DNA from: Flavobacterium sp. MDT1-60
Lineage (GTDB): Bacteria > Bacteroidota > Bacteroidia > Flavobacteriales > Flavobacteriaceae
NCBI RefSeq assembly: GCF_014844035.1
Contig: NZ_CP062159.1
Coordinates: 1,116,001 to 1,180,000, forward strand
Direction of reading: 5' to 3'
DNA length: 64,000 nt
Below the pieces are notes generated by a model. That model had not been told where the DNA came from. It made no database searches and saw nothing but the letters and a program-made list of their open reading frames with translations. Both the position numbers and the translations under genes were made by a program. The stretch's first letter is position 1; each line of letters opens with the position of its first letter. Below, piece after piece: positions 42,206-49,288 of the stretch.

Positions 42206-43372
42206 ATGAACAGAAGAAATTTTCTAACATTGACGGGGACATTCACAGGAGGATTGCTTGTGCTTCCTGATTTTTTGCATGCTTTTGGTTCACAAAACAA
42301 TTTGATAACCGGCGAGCAATGTATTGTTTTTGTACAACTGAACGGAGGAAATGACGGATTGAATACTTTTATTCCGTACGACAATCCTTTGTATTATGAT
42401 TTGAGGACTAAAATTGCTTTGAATAAAGATGTAGTTATCGGAAAAAATAAAGGAATGGCATTTCATCCCTCTCTGAAAGATTTTGCTCAAATACAACAAA
42501 ATGGAGATTTAACCGTAATTCAGAATGTGGGTTATCCAGAACCAATTCGCTCGCATTTCAGAAGTCAGGAAATTTGGCAAACCGCAACCGATTCTAATAA
42601 ATATATAAATGAAGGCTGGCTGGGAAGATATTTAGATTTGCAATGCAATGGTCATCAGGCTACGGCGGGAATAAATTTAGATTCGATTGATAATTTAGCG
42701 TTGAAAGGAATGGAACCCAATTCGATTACGGTAAAAGATCCAAACCGATTTAAAGTGAAGTCAGATAAGGATGAAAATGTAGTATTGTCTGATAATCCAC
42801 AATTAGATTTTGTTAGAAAAATTGCCAATTCGGTAACAGAAGGTTCTGATGAAATTCAGAAAGCATTGGCAAAATCCAAAACAGAAATCAGTTATCCAAA
42901 AACAGGTTTATCTAAAAATCTCGAATGGATCGCCCGATTAATAAAAGGAAATTTGAATTCGAAAGTCTATTACACATCACTGGGAGGTTTTGATACCCAC
43001 GACAATCAGCTCGCCATTCACGAAAGAAAGTTAACCGATCTGAATGATGCCTTATATAGCTTTTATCAGGATTTAAAACAGGCACAATTAATGCAAAATG
43101 TTACAGTTGTTGTATTCTCCGAATTCGGAAGGAGAGTTAGAGACAACGGAAACGGCACAGATCACGGAACTGCAGCGCCAATGTTTATTATTGGAGGAAA
43201 CAATAAAGGAACCATTTTAGGAAATAATCCAAACTTATCTGACTTAGATAATGGTGATTTAAAATATGAAATTGATTTCAGAAGTGTGTATGCTTCTTTA
43301 TTAAAAGAAAAAATGAATTTCGATTATTCTAAAATTGGAATTAGGAATAGGCCGGTTTCTGGATTGTTTTAA
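42206..43372 (+). CDS. DUF1501-family protein with Tat-type signal
   Basis: 388 residues. The N-terminus MNRRNFLTLTGTFTGGLLVL has the twin-arginine pattern RRNFL and a hydrophobic stretch, indicating folded export. The body belongs to the sulfatase-like DUF1501 family: FVQLNGGNDGLNTFIPYDNP, FHPSLKDF, GGFDTHDNQ, VVVFSEFGRRVRDNGNGTDH, GTAAPMFIIGGNNKG. Forms a two-gene operon with the DUF1800 gene. The metal-binding DH residues in GTDHG are kept. Substrate unknown. Confidence 0.9.
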   Translation: MNRRNFLTLTGTFTGGLLVLPDFLHAFGSQNNLITGEQCIVFVQLNGGNDGLNTFIPYDNPLYYDLRTKIALNKDVVIGKNKGMAFHPSLKDFAQIQQNGDLTVIQNVGYPEPIRSHFRSQEIWQTATDSNKYINEGWLGRYLDLQCNGHQATAGINLDSIDNLALKGMEPNSITVKDPNRFKVKSDKDENVVLSDNPQLDFVRKIANSVTEGSDEIQKALAKSKTEISYPKTGLSKNLEWIARLIKGNLNSKVYYTSLGGFDTHDNQLAIHERKLTDLNDALYSFYQDLKQAQLMQNVTVVVFSEFGRRVRDNGNGTDHGTAAPMFIIGGNNKGTILGNNPNLSDLDNGDLKYEIDFRSVYASLLKEKMNFDYSKIGIRNRPVSGLF

Positions 43373-43655: not shown

Positions 43656-43686
43656 TTTGGTGCGGTAAAAATAATTTATACATTCG
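43656..43686 (+). promoter_or_regulatory. Promoter of the Phe/Tyr operon
   Basis: TTTG at 43656-43659 and TACATTCG at 43679-43686, separated by 19 bases, match the Bacteroidetes TTTG/TAnnTTTG promoter at 7 of 8 positions in the -7 box. Transcription should begin near 43692, 24 bases before the leader peptide ATG. Confidence 0.6.
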
Positions 43687-43715
43687 CAGAGAATTTAAAT
43701 AATAACACAAACAAA

Positions 43716-43796
43716 ATGGCATCTAACCGTTTTTATTTTAGCAACTCTTTTTATTTCTTCTTTAGTAGAAGTAAGGATTGTGCTATGGTTATTTGA
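43716..43796 (+). CDS. Phe/Tyr leader peptide of pheA attenuator
   Basis: 26-codon frame: ATG GCA TCT AAC CGT, then FYFSNSFYFFF at residues 6-16 (six Phe and two Tyr in eleven residues), then SRSKDCAMVI and TGA. It ends 66 bases before pheA and 31 before a terminator. The composition is that of amino-acid-sensing leaders such as E. coli pheL. A stalled ribosome at the Phe codons would leave 43774-43781 free to form the antiterminator. Coding is inferred from composition and architecture; no family match is claimed. Confidence 0.85.
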   Translation: MASNRFYFSNSFYFFFSRSKDCAMVI

Positions 43797-43833
43797 GAAA
43801 TATAAAAGACAAATAAAACTAATATACAATCCT
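43774..43833 (+). promoter_or_regulatory. Candidate antiterminator pairing
   Basis: AGGATTGT (43774-43781, inside the end of the leader peptide frame) is perfectly complementary to ACAATCCT (43826-43833), which overlaps the 5' arm of the terminator. The two structures exclude each other, as in classical attenuation. A small hairpin CTTCT/AGAAG (43757-43761 and 43767-43771) lies within the control codons. Confidence 0.7.
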
Positions 43834-43856
43834 GATGAAAATCAGGATTTTTTTTT
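43828..43856 (+). terminator. Attenuator terminator upstream of pheA
   Basis: Perfect 9-bp stem, AATCCTGAT with ATCAGGATT, capped by a GAAA tetraloop and followed by a run of T to 43856, seven bases before the pheA ATG. No gene ends nearby that would need it, other than the leader peptide. Confidence 0.9.
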
Positions 43857-43862
43857 GAATAT

Positions 43863-44702
43863 ATGACAACTAAAATTGCAATACAAGGTATAAAAGGTTC
43901 TTTTCATCATCAGGTAGTGAAGGAGTATTTCTCTGAAAATGTGGCTATTGATGAATGTTTGTCTTTTGAAGAATTAATTGACAGTTTGCTTTCAGGAAAA
44001 TCGGATCAGGCGGTTATGGCGATTGAGAATTCGATTGCAGGTCCAATTATTCCGAATTATGCATTGATTGACAAGAATAATTTGCACATCATTGGAGAAC
44101 ATTATTTAAGCATCCACCAAAATTTGATGGCTTTGAAAGGTCAGAAAATTGAAGATATAAAAGAAGTTCATTCGCACCCAATGGCAATATTGCAATGTAT
44201 GGATTTCTTAAAGCAGTATCCAAACATTAAATTGGTTGAAGATAAAGATACGGCGGAAACGGCCAGAAGAATTCAGGAAAAACAATTAACTGGAATCGCA
44301 GCAATTGCAAGCAAAACAGCTTCGGAAATGTATGATTTAGAAATTATTGCTCCGGAAATTCAAACGATCAAAAATAATATGACCCGTTTTGTGATCATCA
44401 AAAAACAGAATTCATTTTTACCGGAAAGCGAAATCAACAGAGCTTCAATAAAATTTGAATTAGATCACAAAAGAGGAAGCTTGGCAGCGGTTTTGAATGT
44501 AATGAGCGACTGCAAACTGAATTTAACAAAAATTCAGTCGCTTCCGAAAATTGAAACACCCTGGAAATATTCATTCTTCGTAGATGTGACATTTGAGAAA
44601 TACGAAGATTTTGCAAAAGCCAAAACGTTATTAAATATAATGGCAGAATATTTTAAAATTCTGGGAGAATATAAAAACACAAAACCTTTAAGTGAGTCTT
44701 AA
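43863..44702 (+). CDS. pheA: Prephenate dehydratase
   Basis: 279 residues, a monofunctional enzyme converting prephenate to phenylpyruvate. The catalytic domain (about 3-180) shows IAIQGIKGSFHHQVVKEYF, AVMAIENSIAGPI, KEVHSHPMAILQCMDFL, DTAETARRI and NNMTRFVII (TRF catalytic region). The ACT domain (about 195-275) includes HKRGSLAAVLNVMSDCKLNL with TKIQSLPKIETPWKYSFFVD, where Phe would bind for feedback control. First structural gene after the attenuator, followed by an aminotransferase 88 bases later. Confidence 0.95.
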   Translation: MTTKIAIQGIKGSFHHQVVKEYFSENVAIDECLSFEELIDSLLSGKSDQAVMAIENSIAGPIIPNYALIDKNNLHIIGEHYLSIHQNLMALKGQKIEDIKEVHSHPMAILQCMDFLKQYPNIKLVEDKDTAETARRIQEKQLTGIAAIASKTASEMYDLEIIAPEIQTIKNNMTRFVIIKKQNSFLPESEINRASIKFELDHKRGSLAAVLNVMSDCKLNLTKIQSLPKIETPWKYSFFVDVTFEKYEDFAKAKTLLNIMAEYFKILGEYKNTKPLSES

Positions 44703-44790: not shown

Positions 44791-45936
44791 ATGATTACAA
44801 CAGCAAAAAGATTAGATACAGTTGAAGAATACTATTTCTCATCAAAATTGAGAGAAGTGCGTCAACTGCAGTCTGAAGGAAAATCTATCATCAATATGGG
44901 AATTGGAAGCCCTGATTTGAGTCCGTCGAAAGCAGTAATTGAAGCGGTTGCCGCAGCAATTCAAGATGAAAACGGACATGGTTATCAGAGTTATCAGGGA
45001 TTGCCGGAATTGAGAAAAGGAATGGCAGATTTTTATCAGAATCAGTTTGGTGTTGAGTTGAATCCGAATAATGAGATTTTGCCTTTGATGGGTTCGAAAG
45101 AAGGAATTATGCATATTTCATTAGCTTTTTTAAATGAAGGCGATCACGTTTTAATTCCGAATCCAGGTTATCCAACGTATACTTCGGTAACCAATTTGGT
45201 TGGAGCGGTTCCGGTTTATTACGATCTGAAAGAAGTAAATGCCTGGGAACCGGATTTTGAAGCTTTAGAAAAACTGGATCTTTCGAAAGTAAAAATTATG
45301 TGGCTGGGATATCCGCACATGCCTACAGGAGCAAGAGGAAGTTTAGCGTTATTTGAAAAATTGGTTGCTTTTGCTAAAAAACACAACATATTATTGGTTA
45401 ACGATAATCCGTATAGTTTTGTTTTGAATGATAATCCGATGAGTTTATTGCAAGTTGAAGGCGCGAAGGAAGTGGCCTTAGAATTGAATTCATTAAGCAA
45501 AACTTTCAACATGGCAGGCTGGAGAGTGGGAATGGTTTTAGGAAATCCTGAAATTATCGATGCGGTGCTGAAAGTAAAAAGTAATATGGACAGCGGAATG
45601 TATTACGGAATTCAGAAAGGTGCAATTGCCGCCTTAAATTGTGATAAATCATGGTTTGAAGATCAAAACAAAATTTACAGACGACGTAGAGAATTAACAG
45701 AAAAACTAGCAGAAAAACTAGGTTGCAAAGTGTATAAAGAAGGAGTTGGACTTTTTGTCTGGGCAAAATTGCCGGAAGGAATCGAATCTGCAGAAAAGTT
45801 CATCGACGAAATATTATACGAGAAACATATTTTTATCACACCGGGAACAATCTTCGGAAGTAATGGTGAAGGATATATCAGATTTTCGTTGTGTGTAAAA
45901 GAAGAAAAAGTACAAGAAGCGATTGATAGATTTTAG
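44791..45936 (+). CDS. Class I/II aminotransferase of the Phe/Tyr operon
   Basis: 381 residues, PLP-dependent fold type I. Motifs: MGIGSPDLSPSKAVIEAVAA, GYQSYQGLPELRKGMADFY, NPGYPTYTSV, LVNDNPYSFVLND and the PLP-Lys motif SLSKTFNMAGWRVGMVLGNP. Its place between pheA and tyrA indicates it transaminates phenylpyruvate and 4-hydroxyphenylpyruvate (or prephenate). The family also includes diaminopimelate and alanine aminotransferases, so the substrate is inferred from the operon. The spacer before it carries a short degenerate repeat. Confidence 0.9.
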   Translation: MITTAKRLDTVEEYYFSSKLREVRQLQSEGKSIINMGIGSPDLSPSKAVIEAVAAAIQDENGHGYQSYQGLPELRKGMADFYQNQFGVELNPNNEILPLMGSKEGIMHISLAFLNEGDHVLIPNPGYPTYTSVTNLVGAVPVYYDLKEVNAWEPDFEALEKLDLSKVKIMWLGYPHMPTGARGSLALFEKLVAFAKKHNILLVNDNPYSFVLNDNPMSLLQVEGAKEVALELNSLSKTFNMAGWRVGMVLGNPEIIDAVLKVKSNMDSGMYYGIQKGAIAALNCDKSWFEDQNKIYRRRRELTEKLAEKLGCKVYKEGVGLFVWAKLPEGIESAEKFIDEILYEKHIFITPGTIFGSNGEGYIRFSLCVKEEKVQEAIDRF

Positions 45937-46048
45937 TAGTAAGATTTTAGAAGGAAGAATCAAGATTTTTATTCAGGTTGTCAGGTTGAGCGATTCCGAG
46001 GCTTCGGAAGAAGCTTTTTAGTTGGAATTTGGAATTTAAAGAAATAGT

Positions 46049-46908
46049 ATGAAAGTATACGTAATAGGAATAGGGTTAATAGGGGGGTCGATGGTGCTGG
46101 ACATCAAAGACCAACATCCGAACGCAACTATTTTTGGGATTGACAGCAACGAGAAACATTTGCAGGAAGCAATTGATTTGGGTGTTATCGATCAGGCAGG
46201 AAACTTTGAAGATTTGGCTGAAGCCGATTTTGTAATTGTTTCGGTTCCGGTTGATGTTGCACTGGTCGTTTTGCCAAAAGTATTGGATTTGGTTGGAGAT
46301 AAAACAATTGTTTTTGAAGTAGGTTCTACTAAAAAGCCAATTTGTGATGCAGTTGGCAGTCATCCGAAAGAAGAAATTTTATAGCAACGCATCCAATTGC
46401 AGGAACAGAGTTTTCAGGACCTTCGGCGGCGATAAGAGGTTTGTTTAAAGGAAAGACAAACATTATTTGCGAAGTGGAAAAAACCACTTTTAAATTGCAG
46501 GAAAAGGCGTTACAGCTTTTCAGCGAAATTGGAATGAGGATTCGATATATGGATCCGACGTCACACGACAAACACATTGCTTACGTTTCGCATTTGTCGC
46601 ACATTAGCTCGTTTATGCTTGGAAAAACGGTAATGAACAAAGAAAAAGACGAACAGGATATCTTTGATATGGCGGGAAGTGGATTTGAAAGTACAGTTCG
46701 TTTAGCAAAAAGTTCTCCAGCGATGTGGACACCGATTTTTAAGCAAAACAAAGAGCACGTTATTGAAACATTAGAAGAATATATTTCAAATCTCAGTCGG
46801 TTTAGGGATTTGCTAAAAGAAGATAATTACAATGCCATTTTTGAAGAAATGGAAAGCACAAATAAAATAAAAGAAATACTAAACGGATTAACAACAACTA
46901 AAAAGTAA
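46049..46908 (+). CDS. tyrA: Prephenate dehydrogenase (one-base frameshift)
   Basis: Oxidises prephenate to 4-hydroxyphenylpyruvate for tyrosine. The N-terminal Rossmann fold begins MKVYVIGIGLIGGSMVLDIK. The first frame ends at 46384. Adding one A to the A3 run at 46367-46369 restores SHPKRRNFIATHPIAGTEFS, including the HPIAG substrate motif, and joins the C-terminal helical domain (DPTSHDKHIAYVSHLSHISS). The total is then exactly 287 codons. In a Phe/Tyr biosynthetic operon a real knockout would cause tyrosine auxotrophy, so an assembly error is likelier. Confidence 0.85.
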
Positions 46909-46920
46909 ATTAGAATTAAG

Positions 46921-48003
46921 ATGGAAAATAAGAAAGAAATGAGAAAGTGGTTAGAAGATTTCAATTTAAATCACCCACTTGTGATAGCTGGACCTTGTAG
47001 TGCAGAAACGGAAGATCAAGTATTAAAGATTGCTCATGAATTGAAAGATTCAAAAGTTAGTGTATTCAGAGCTGGAATCTGGAAACCAAGAACGCGTCCG
47101 GGAGGATTTGAAGGTGTTGGAGAAATTGGTTTAAAATGGTTACAAAAAGCTAAAAAAGAAACTGGTTTATTAATGGGAACTGAAGTTGCGACTGCAGCGC
47201 ATTGTAAACTGGCTTTAGAACATGATATCGACGTTTTATGGGTTGGTGCACGTACAACTGCAAACCCATTCGCAGTTCAGGAAATTGCTGATACATTAAA
47301 AGGAACTGATAAAATCGTTTTGGTTAAAAACCCTGTAAATCCGGATTTAGCTTTATGGTTAGGTGGTGTTGAGCGTTTGCACATGGCTGGAATTGAGAAA
47401 TTAGGAGTAATTCACAGAGGTTTCTCTACTTACGAGAAAACAAAATACAGAAACATTCCGGAATGGCAAATTGCTATCGAATTGCAAAATAAATTCCCTG
47501 ATTTACCTTTAATCATCGATCCATCTCACATTACCGGAGATCGTAAAATGATTTTCGAAGTAACACAAGAGGCTTTAGATTTGAATTACGATGGTATGAT
47601 TATCGAAACGCACTACGATCCGGACAACGCCTGGTCTGATGCTGCTCAACAAGTTACTCCTGATGTTTTGAAACAAATTATTAAAGATTTGACGATCAGA
47701 AAAACAGATGACACTACAGATGAGTACAGTTCAAAAATGACTAAATTAAGAGCCAATATCGACGTTTTGGATGCTAACTTATTAGAGTTATTAGGAAAAC
47801 GTATGAAAGTAGCTGACGAAATTGGTCAGGTGAAAAAAGATGCAAACGTAGCGATTCTTCAAAACAATCGTTGGAATGAAATCTTAGGAAAAATGATTTT
47901 AGAAGGTGAGAAAAAAGGTCTTACTGAAGAGTTTGTTTTGAGAATGTTCAAAGCAATCCACCAGGAAAGTATCGGTCACCAGGAAAAAATATTCAACGCA
48001 TAA
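46921..48003 (+). CDS. DAHP synthase / chorismate mutase fusion
   Basis: 360 residues. The N-terminal DAHP synthase domain (about 1-260) carries HPLVIAGPCSAETEDQVLKI, FRAGIWKPRTRPGGFEGVGE, TEVATAAHCKLAL, LWVGARTTANPFAVQE, LVKNPVNPD, GVIHRGFSTYEKTKYRN and IDPSHITGDRK. The C-terminal AroQ-type chorismate mutase (about 268-355) has MTKLRANIDVLDANLLELLG with KRMKVADEIGQVKK. It condenses PEP with erythrose 4-phosphate and also rearranges chorismate to prephenate, feeding both pheA and tyrA products. Last gene of the operon; a terminator follows. Confidence 0.95.
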   Translation: MENKKEMRKWLEDFNLNHPLVIAGPCSAETEDQVLKIAHELKDSKVSVFRAGIWKPRTRPGGFEGVGEIGLKWLQKAKKETGLLMGTEVATAAHCKLALEHDIDVLWVGARTTANPFAVQEIADTLKGTDKIVLVKNPVNPDLALWLGGVERLHMAGIEKLGVIHRGFSTYEKTKYRNIPEWQIAIELQNKFPDLPLIIDPSHITGDRKMIFEVTQEALDLNYDGMIIETHYDPDNAWSDAAQQVTPDVLKQIIKDLTIRKTDDTTDEYSSKMTKLRANIDVLDANLLELLGKRMKVADEIGQVKKDANVAILQNNRWNEILGKMILEGEKKGLTEEFVLRMFKAIHQESIGHQEKIFNA

Positions 48004-48303: not shown

Positions 48304-49288
48304 ATGACAGGACTCGTATATAAATCTACAGGAAGTTGGTATACCGTAAAATCGGAACAAGGCGATTTTATAGAATGCCGTATGAAAGGGAAGTTTAGGA
48401 TGAAAGGTATAAAAAGTACTAATCCTATTGCTGTAGGCGATATTGTCGATTATGAACTCGAAGAAACTTCAGATGCTGTAACCGGAACTATTTTTAATAT
48501 TCACGAAAGAAAGAATTACATTGTTCGTAAATCGGTTAACCTTTCGCATCAAATGCATATTATTGCGTCGAATATTGATCGTGTCTTTTTATTGATAACG
48601 ATTAATAATCCACCCACAACCTTCAATTTTATAGACCGTTTTTTTGGTAACTGCCGAAGCTTATAATATTGAAACTATATTAGTTTTTAATAAGATCGAT
48701 ACTTTTGACGATGCTACGTTAGATGATCAATTGTATATGCAATATGTCTATGAGCAGATTGGTTATAAATGCCTTCGCGTTTCGTCGACTGAAATGAAGG
48801 GAATTGAGGAACTGAAAGAAATGATGATTGGTAAAGTAAGTATGTTCTCTGGACATTCCGGTGTGGGAAAATCAACTTTGGTAAATGCTATGGAGCCTTC
48901 TTTGCATCTTAAAACCAAAACCATTTCAGAAGCCAGTAAACAAGGTCAGCACACCACTACTTTTGCTGAAATGTATGACTTGTCTTTTAATGCTAAAATT
49001 ATTGATACCCCGGGAATTAAAGGTTTCGGAATTGTGGATATGGAAAAAGAAGAAATCAGCGGCTATTTTCCTGAGTTTTTCAGACTGAAAGATCAATGTA
49101 AATTCAACAATTGTCTGCATAAAGAAGAACCACACTGTGCTATAAAAGCAGCTTTGGAAAAAGACGAAATTTCGTGGACGCGTTACAATAGTTATTTGAA
49201 AATTCTTGAAGGCGATGAAGAAAATTATCGTACAGATTCGTATGATGAAGATCGTAAAATTAGCGATGAAACCAGAAACCAGAAATAA
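48304..49288 (+). CDS. rsgA: Ribosome small-subunit GTPase RsgA (one-base frameshift)
   Basis: Circularly permuted GTPase that checks maturation of the 30S subunit. The N-terminal OB fold (MTGLVYKSTGSWYTVKSEQG) is followed by the G4 motif VFNKID, G1 GHSGVGKSTLVN and G3 DTPGIKGFG. A zinc knuckle follows: CKFNNC, then HKEEPHC. The frame breaks in a T7 run (48639-48645) which should be T6. Removing one T restores FIDRFLVTAEAYNIETILVF and gives 328 codons. This is the only one of the nine indels that is a gain. Confidence 0.88.

Follow-up and report, generated by a model that had tools for sequence, protein, structure and literature searches.

A putative phenylalanine/tyrosine attenuator with a leader peptide 5' of pheA in Flavobacterium sp. 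MDT1-60 and its conservation in the Flavobacteriaceae

In enteric bacteria, the pheL region consists of a Phe-rich leader peptide with a protector, an antiterminator, and a terminator, all located before pheA. Action by order of folding is accepted for trpL, the equivalent system of the tryptophan operon. Attenuation is also described for hisG in the enterobacteria (PMC8305728). Within the Bacteroidota, the Bacteroid-trp element (RF01692), which Rfam describes as a tryptophan peptide leader, is listed in Weinberg et al. 2010 (PMC2864571), and short ORFs resembling leader peptides are described from Bacteroides thetaiotaomicron (PMC7366714). Closest to the present case, structured 5' regions were reported in 2021 at pheA and hisG of Flavobacterium psychrophilum, which are kept in other genera and are without Rfam matches, and the amino-acid operons of that species gave strong clues for leader-peptide attenuation (PMC9723704). 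All of these sources are cited here from the portions that were accessible. No literature on a pheA leader peptide in the Bacteroidota was found besides PMC9723704, in a search that had most subscription journals outside its reach.

The sequence analysed here, referred to as the window, is a stretch of 64,000 nt corresponding to positions 1116001-1180000 of the 5.56 Mb, single-contig genome of Flavobacterium sp. MDT1-60. All features are on the forward strand and are numbered from the first base of the window. The pheA gene (43863-44702) encodes a prephenate dehydratase with a PDT domain (Pfam PF00800, 3.8e-58) and an ACT-like end that scores below the Pfam cut-off; its product is 100% identical to that of F. 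aquidurense DSM 18293. A DUF1501 gene 5' of the leader ends at 43372. On the same strand behind pheA there is a presumed operon (44791-48003) of a class I/II aminotransferase (44791-45936), tyrA, encoding prephenate dehydrogenase (46049-46908), and a DAHP synthase with a chorismate mutase domain (46921-48003). From their order and strand, the genes from pheA to the DAHP synthase may be carried on one transcript and be jointly controlled.

The tyrA gene is split by a frameshift into the frames 46049-46384 and 46441-46908, where a run of A in the window is one A shorter than in two compared loci. The frame is open, with 283-286 codons, in 78 of 79 Flavobacterium relatives, and runs past the end of the locus in the remaining one. 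The split is either an assembly error or a recent mutation. A second gene, rsgA, also seems to be split, into the overlapping frames 48304-48666 and 48644-49288, which match the Pfam RsgA_N and RsgA_GTPase pieces, and this would fit indel errors in the assembly.

The region 5' of pheA begins with a promoter-like sequence of the Bacteroidota type, with elements at -33 and -7 (43656-43686), read directly from the sequence as TTTG (43656-43659), a 19-nt spacer, and TACATTCG (43679-43686). It is followed by a leader peptide ORF of 26 codons, MASNRFYFSNSFYFFFSRSKDCAMVI (43716-43796), with its TGA stop at 43794-43796. Residues 6-16 of the peptide, FYFSNSFYFFF (43731-43763), hold six Phe and two Tyr. 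The bases 43774-43781, AGGATTGT, are a perfect 8-nt complement of 43826-43833, ACAATCCT. The terminator is a 9-bp stem (43828-43836 with 43841-43849) with a GAAA loop and a T-run ending at 43856, and the stem lies 13 nt from pheA. It is the only terminator-like site between 43500 and 43900, where shuffled sequences have a mean of 0.1. The leader RNA from 43693 to 43852 folds with a z of -3.64, and an equally good fold was obtained from none of 200 shuffles. The promoter, leader ORF, terminator, and 8-nt complement named in the preliminary description of this locus are thus confirmed base for base. What that description overlooked is a pairing of the aromatic codons with the purine stretch that follows them and with the arm. 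This 1:2 pairing, predicted in the fold without a ribosome, completes the four-segment design of trpL and pheL in the window: segment 1 is the stretch of aromatic, sensing codons; segment 2 is the purine-rich linker with the antiterminator arm (43764-43781); segment 3 comprises the partner of segment 2 and the 5' arm of the terminator (43826-43836); and segment 4 is the 3' arm with the remainder of the T-run (43841-43856).

Conservation of the leader was assessed as the presence, within 300 nt 5' of pheA, of an ORF starting with ATG, scored by the number of aromatic residues (Phe, Tyr, or Trp) in its best stretch of ten. From the 303 relatives found, 80 named Flavobacterium loci were kept. For the family, 120 genomes were drawn, one per genus, of which 102 have pheA; upstream DNA was taken from 101 of these, the window's own being excluded. 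All 80 Flavobacterium loci have an ORF scoring at least 7, and therefore at least 6, while in the family this is the case for 94 loci at the higher threshold and 96 at the lower. At a threshold of 6, such an ORF occurs in 2 of 101 reverse complements, 1 of 98 stretches of the next 300 nt upstream, and 130 of 5050 dinucleotide shuffles (2.6%); at 7, the corresponding values are 1 of 101, 1 of 98, and 20 of 5050. The leader is absent from four family loci with upstream DNA present, and a fifth locus without it has a contig end that leaves only 128 nt upstream. The leader before pheA is not a chance feature.

Both Phe and Tyr occur in every one of the 96 family leaders. Trp occurs in 68 of them, but in 0 of the 80 leaders from named Flavobacterium. 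Where Trp is present in the other genera, it often sits immediately ahead of the Phe/Tyr cluster. It is possible that all three aromatic amino acids are sensed by the leaders bearing Trp.

The terminator is found behind the leader in 223 of 224 loci, a count that pools all ranks and includes the window's copy and some duplicated genomes. Covariation of its stem was examined in a MAFFT alignment of 61 sequences, made up of the window and 60 of the 96 family loci, 36 having been removed by eye as near-duplicates before pairs were counted. In this alignment, 96.5% of the cells are paired and there are two-sided changes at 6 of the 8 pairs. The 41 cells with two-sided changes compare with 11.2 in shuffles, and this number is reached by none of 500. 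Since the antiterminator arms are, by eye, out of register between lineages by a one-base shift, the alignment was limited to the terminator, and arms were exchanged between loci to test the antiterminator.

The antiterminator arm and its partner differ by lineage, as GGATTGT/ACAATCC, CGGGACT/AGTCCCG, CGAGAC/GTCTCG, AGCGGTC/GACCGCT, CCGGGTT/AACCCGG, AGCGGGA/TCCCGCT, and AAGGCT/AGCCTT. In the 96 family loci the pairing score in cis is 17.2, against 12.5 for partners from a different arm class and 16.4 for partners from the same class; in 40 loci from the order, class, and phylum it is 19.0 in cis and 12.3 when swapped. With one locus per arm class from all ranks (n=18, 4 loci without a class label being excluded), the scores are 17.15 and 11.89, and in each of 20 draws the cis value was reached by 0 of 2000 permutations; this class-level test leans little on close relatives. 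There is in addition one variable pair within the antiterminator, which matches in 36 of 36 scorable loci (C:G in 14, T:A in 22); the register motif was required exactly once, which left 59 of the 95 loci with a GTC..G arm unscorable. A Fisher value for this pair takes no account of relatedness and is given no weight here.

The spacing of these parts corresponds to the size of a ribosome. The usual ribosome footprint extends 15 nt past the first base of the P site, which would mean that, with the last Phe codon (43761-43763) in the A site, the RNA is covered to about 43773; the arm starts at 43774. In 93 of the 96 family loci the arm starts 8-14 nt past the last aromatic codon, compared with 18% of shuffled stretches. 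The offset lies outside this range in 3, and it is at least 9 nt in 91. Among the 40 loci from the order, class, and phylum, 4 have offsets outside 6-16 nt. The arm ends no more than 12 nt beyond the stop codon in all 96 family loci, and a ribosome at the stop would therefore cover it. The nine bases after the aromatic cluster are 85% purine, and there is a Lys or Arg within four residues in 87 of 96 leaders, as would be expected if those codons pair with the Phe codons.

It could be proposed that the leader is a small protein with its own function, for example a hydrophobic membrane peptide, and that the terminator is separate from it. The ORF is conserved and rich in Phe, as membrane peptides can be, but the peptides diverge outside the aromatic cluster, which is kept, such that there are 95 distinct sequences in the 96 family loci. 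The C-terminal codons of the leader track the terminator arm, the aromatic cluster lies at a fixed distance from the antiterminator arm, and in 8 of the 80 Flavobacterium loci the peptide ends directly after SRS with the arm still present and pairing. A function as a small protein is thus very improbable.

Sensing of Phe, Tyr, or uncharged tRNA by a riboswitch, a T-box, or a protein-bound RNA antiterminator, with the ORF being incidental, would account for the existence of a structured 5' element with a terminator. Yet no Rfam family, including the T-box and riboswitch models, reaches its gathering cut-off in the window. Between 43600 and 43900 the only matches with E up to 1 are the patAB leader, at 24.1 bits (cut-off 92), and Phe_leader (RF01859), which is matched along its whole length at 18.7 bits (E 0.89; cut-off 55 bits); Bacteroid-trp (cut-off 49 bits) has no match there at this level. 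Sensing of this kind would also leave the enrichment of aromatic codons and the ribosome-sized spacing unexplained, and its probability is very low.

The promoter motif TAnnTT(T/C)G, preceded by a TTG at the distance of a -33 element, lies 5' of the leader in all 80 Flavobacterium loci; TAHHTTTG is the consensus element given in PMC6847099. In the other genera, the -7 element is found in 25 of 96 loci and 12 of 98 control windows, its combination with a -33 TTG in 15 of 96 and 4 of 98, and a loose promoter pattern in 36 of 96 and 27 of 294. The motif, as judged by such matches, is clear in Flavobacterium and only moderately above background elsewhere. That the terminator merely ends upstream transcripts, with pheA having its own promoter behind it and the leader now being irrelevant, is scarcely credible, for although the distance from terminator to pheA is up to 124 nt in the family, enough to fit another promoter in certain genera, the 13 nt in the window are too short for the known promoter type, and the motif precedes the leader in every Flavobacterium locus.

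The start context of the leader is rich in A. In the 80 Flavobacterium leaders there is an A at -3 in 95%, at -6 in 97%, and at -12 in 96%, and none has a site resembling a Shine-Dalgarno sequence; among the 96 family leaders, 77% have an A at -3 and one has such a site. According to the accessible parts of PMC6847099, an A at -3 and at -6 promotes initiation in F. johnsoniae, and the mRNA of the family in which these leaders are found lacks Shine-Dalgarno sequences. By its A-rich context, the leader thus has the features expected of a gene that is well initiated in these bacteria.

In the state model for the window, the probability of the antiterminator is 0.99 with a ribosome on the last Phe codon and segment 4 absent, and that of the terminator is 0.965 with a ribosome at the stop codon. 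When no ribosome is present, the RNA of 43693-43800 folds strongly, at -21.3 kcal/mol, by pairing of the aromatic codons with the linker and arm, and the terminator has a probability of 0.964 in the complete RNA. At equilibrium without a ribosome, with segment 3 present and segment 4 absent, the antiterminator still wins (0.91), and protection would therefore have to be kinetic. In the full RNA, the terminator is favoured (0.95) when the ribosome stalls at the first Phe codon, and stalling at the last one gives similar values for the two states (0.64 and 0.58). These equilibrium results, with and without stalls, would mean that the switch acts by order of folding.

Across the 96 family loci, the protector hairpin has a mean z of -0.93, with 15 loci above 0, and the arm is paired upstream with a probability above 0.5 in 81. 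The mean z is -2.31 for 20 Flavobacterium loci (every fourth of the 80) and -0.95 for 27 loci from the class and phylum, of which 8 are above 0. As predicted by folding, the protector hairpin is clear in the window and weaker across the family than in Flavobacterium.

With the parts present and conserved, the paired arms changing jointly, and the geometry observed, the element very probably belongs to the ribosome-mediated transcription attenuators of pheL/trpL type and responds to the supply of Phe and Tyr. The RNA polymerase would start some 25 nt upstream of the leader ATG. A ribosome would initiate on the leader without a Shine-Dalgarno sequence, in an A-rich, Kozak-like context. When Phe-tRNA or Tyr-tRNA is scarce, either of which may be the one that matters most, the ribosome would stall within FYFSNSFYFFF, opening the hairpin between segments 1 and 2 and leaving 43774-43781 just outside the ribosome. 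Segment 2 could then pair with 43826-43833 as it emerges, so that the terminator would be prevented and transcription would continue into pheA and the genes that follow. With ample Phe and Tyr, the ribosome would go on to the stop codon and cover segment 2, the terminator would form, and transcription would end before pheA. The preliminary description had read the locus in this way, with a stall freeing 43774-43781 and a ribosome at the stop covering it, and this classical attenuation reading is supported by conservation, covariation, and the joint change of the arms. The computational tests of refutation suggested there have also come out in its favour: the leader frame and its Phe/Tyr bias are kept in relatives (80 of 80 and 96 of 101, against 2.6% of shuffles), the terminator covaries, and the antiterminator arm changes jointly with it between lineages.

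Leaders of this type extend beyond the family. A draw of 149 genomes from the class gave 41 with a detectable pheA, 36 of them outside the window's family and outside a family with a divergent pheA. Of these 36 loci, 22 score at least 6 out of 10, 3 score 5, and 11 are lower. Among 11 further loci of the class obtained in the phylum draw, 9 score at least 6 and two score below this. Within the order, 14 loci come from other families, the divergent one and one with small genomes being set apart; 9 score at least 6, three score 5, and two are below 5. The leader was found in 0 of 8 loci of the family with the divergent pheA (2 of its 10 matches not being included) and in 0 of 9 loci of the family with small genomes. 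In other classes of the phylum, where the loci were picked by hand and not at random, there is an aromatic leader in four (L215, L251, L252, and L295), to which pheA might possibly have been transferred together with the switch, and none in 12 others. The pheA products of L215, L251, L252, and L295 are 41-46% identical to the query, with the listed matches from outside the class being mostly 29-38%.

Other leader peptides are present in the same genome 5' of hisG (MISNQLHHHHFHYCSQAMC, His-rich), trpE (MNNTWWWKNLRQTS, Trp-rich), and ilvD (MQISIIITSVVVVNVIFTSASGMV, Ile/Val-rich), and the Thr-rich MTTQTGVAIAATTISTTTTP precedes a fused, thrA-like gene with a homoserine dehydrogenase domain. By eye, there are terminator-like hairpins after the his, trp, and ilv leaders and no clear terminator behind the thrA-like one; a Thr/Ile-rich leader was not seen at two further homoserine dehydrogenase genes. 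The trpE leader matches Bacteroid-trp (RF01692) at 74.5 bits, above its cut-off of 49, and the his, ilv, and thr leaders have no Rfam match at the cut-offs. Attenuation is probably general in the control of amino-acid genes in this genome.

A wider reading would be that the leader is a joint sensor of aromatic supply, kept since early in the class Bacteroidia, with a tail written by RNA pairing, and that attenuation is general in the Flavobacteriaceae (phe/tyr, his, trp, ilv, and thr). Since such a sensor works only with a ribosome close behind the RNA polymerase, it would show tight coupling of transcription and translation without Shine-Dalgarno sequences. This reading is favoured here, if with some reserve. 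With the switch, a single reporter would suffice for a direct test of such coupling in the Bacteroidota. Over 200 loci were gathered whose leader tail, antiterminator, and terminator change jointly between lineages. They form a data set for models of the ribosome footprint and of the order of folding, and a new RNA family could be built from them.

The pheA leader resembles E. coli pheL (RF01859) in having a Phe-rich leader peptide and a predicted antiterminator and terminator before pheA, in its four-segment logic, and, in the window, in a predicted protector, which is weaker across the family. It differs in that every family leader has Tyr codons and 68 of the 96 have Trp codons, that no Shine-Dalgarno-like site is found in the 80 Flavobacterium leaders, and that the presumed operon includes tyrA and the DAHP synthase/chorismate mutase. 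Of the features of trpL/pheL-type attenuators, the Phe/Tyr-rich leader ORF and a predicted intrinsic terminator before pheA are both present, and an exclusive antiterminator exposed on a stall is indicated by comparison, geometry, and the folding model. Judged on sequence, the leader has the tested anatomy of the pheL/trpL attenuators, and by score it lies outside both Rfam Phe_leader and Bacteroid-trp. Bacteroid-trp is, by its Rfam description, likewise a peptide leader of the same phylum, but has Trp codons and other genes. The element of F. psychrophilum is 5' of the same gene in the same family, and the parts of PMC9723704 examined give no leader sequence, segments, or covariation for it. 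An attenuator in the Bacteroidota had been put forward as notable in the preliminary description. With these two precedents, the pheA element is partly anticipated in print and is not the first such element in the phylum. What is added here is the coupling of leader tail, antiterminator, and terminator at the level of lineages, the spacing that matches a ribosome, and the tie between transcription and translation that these would imply.
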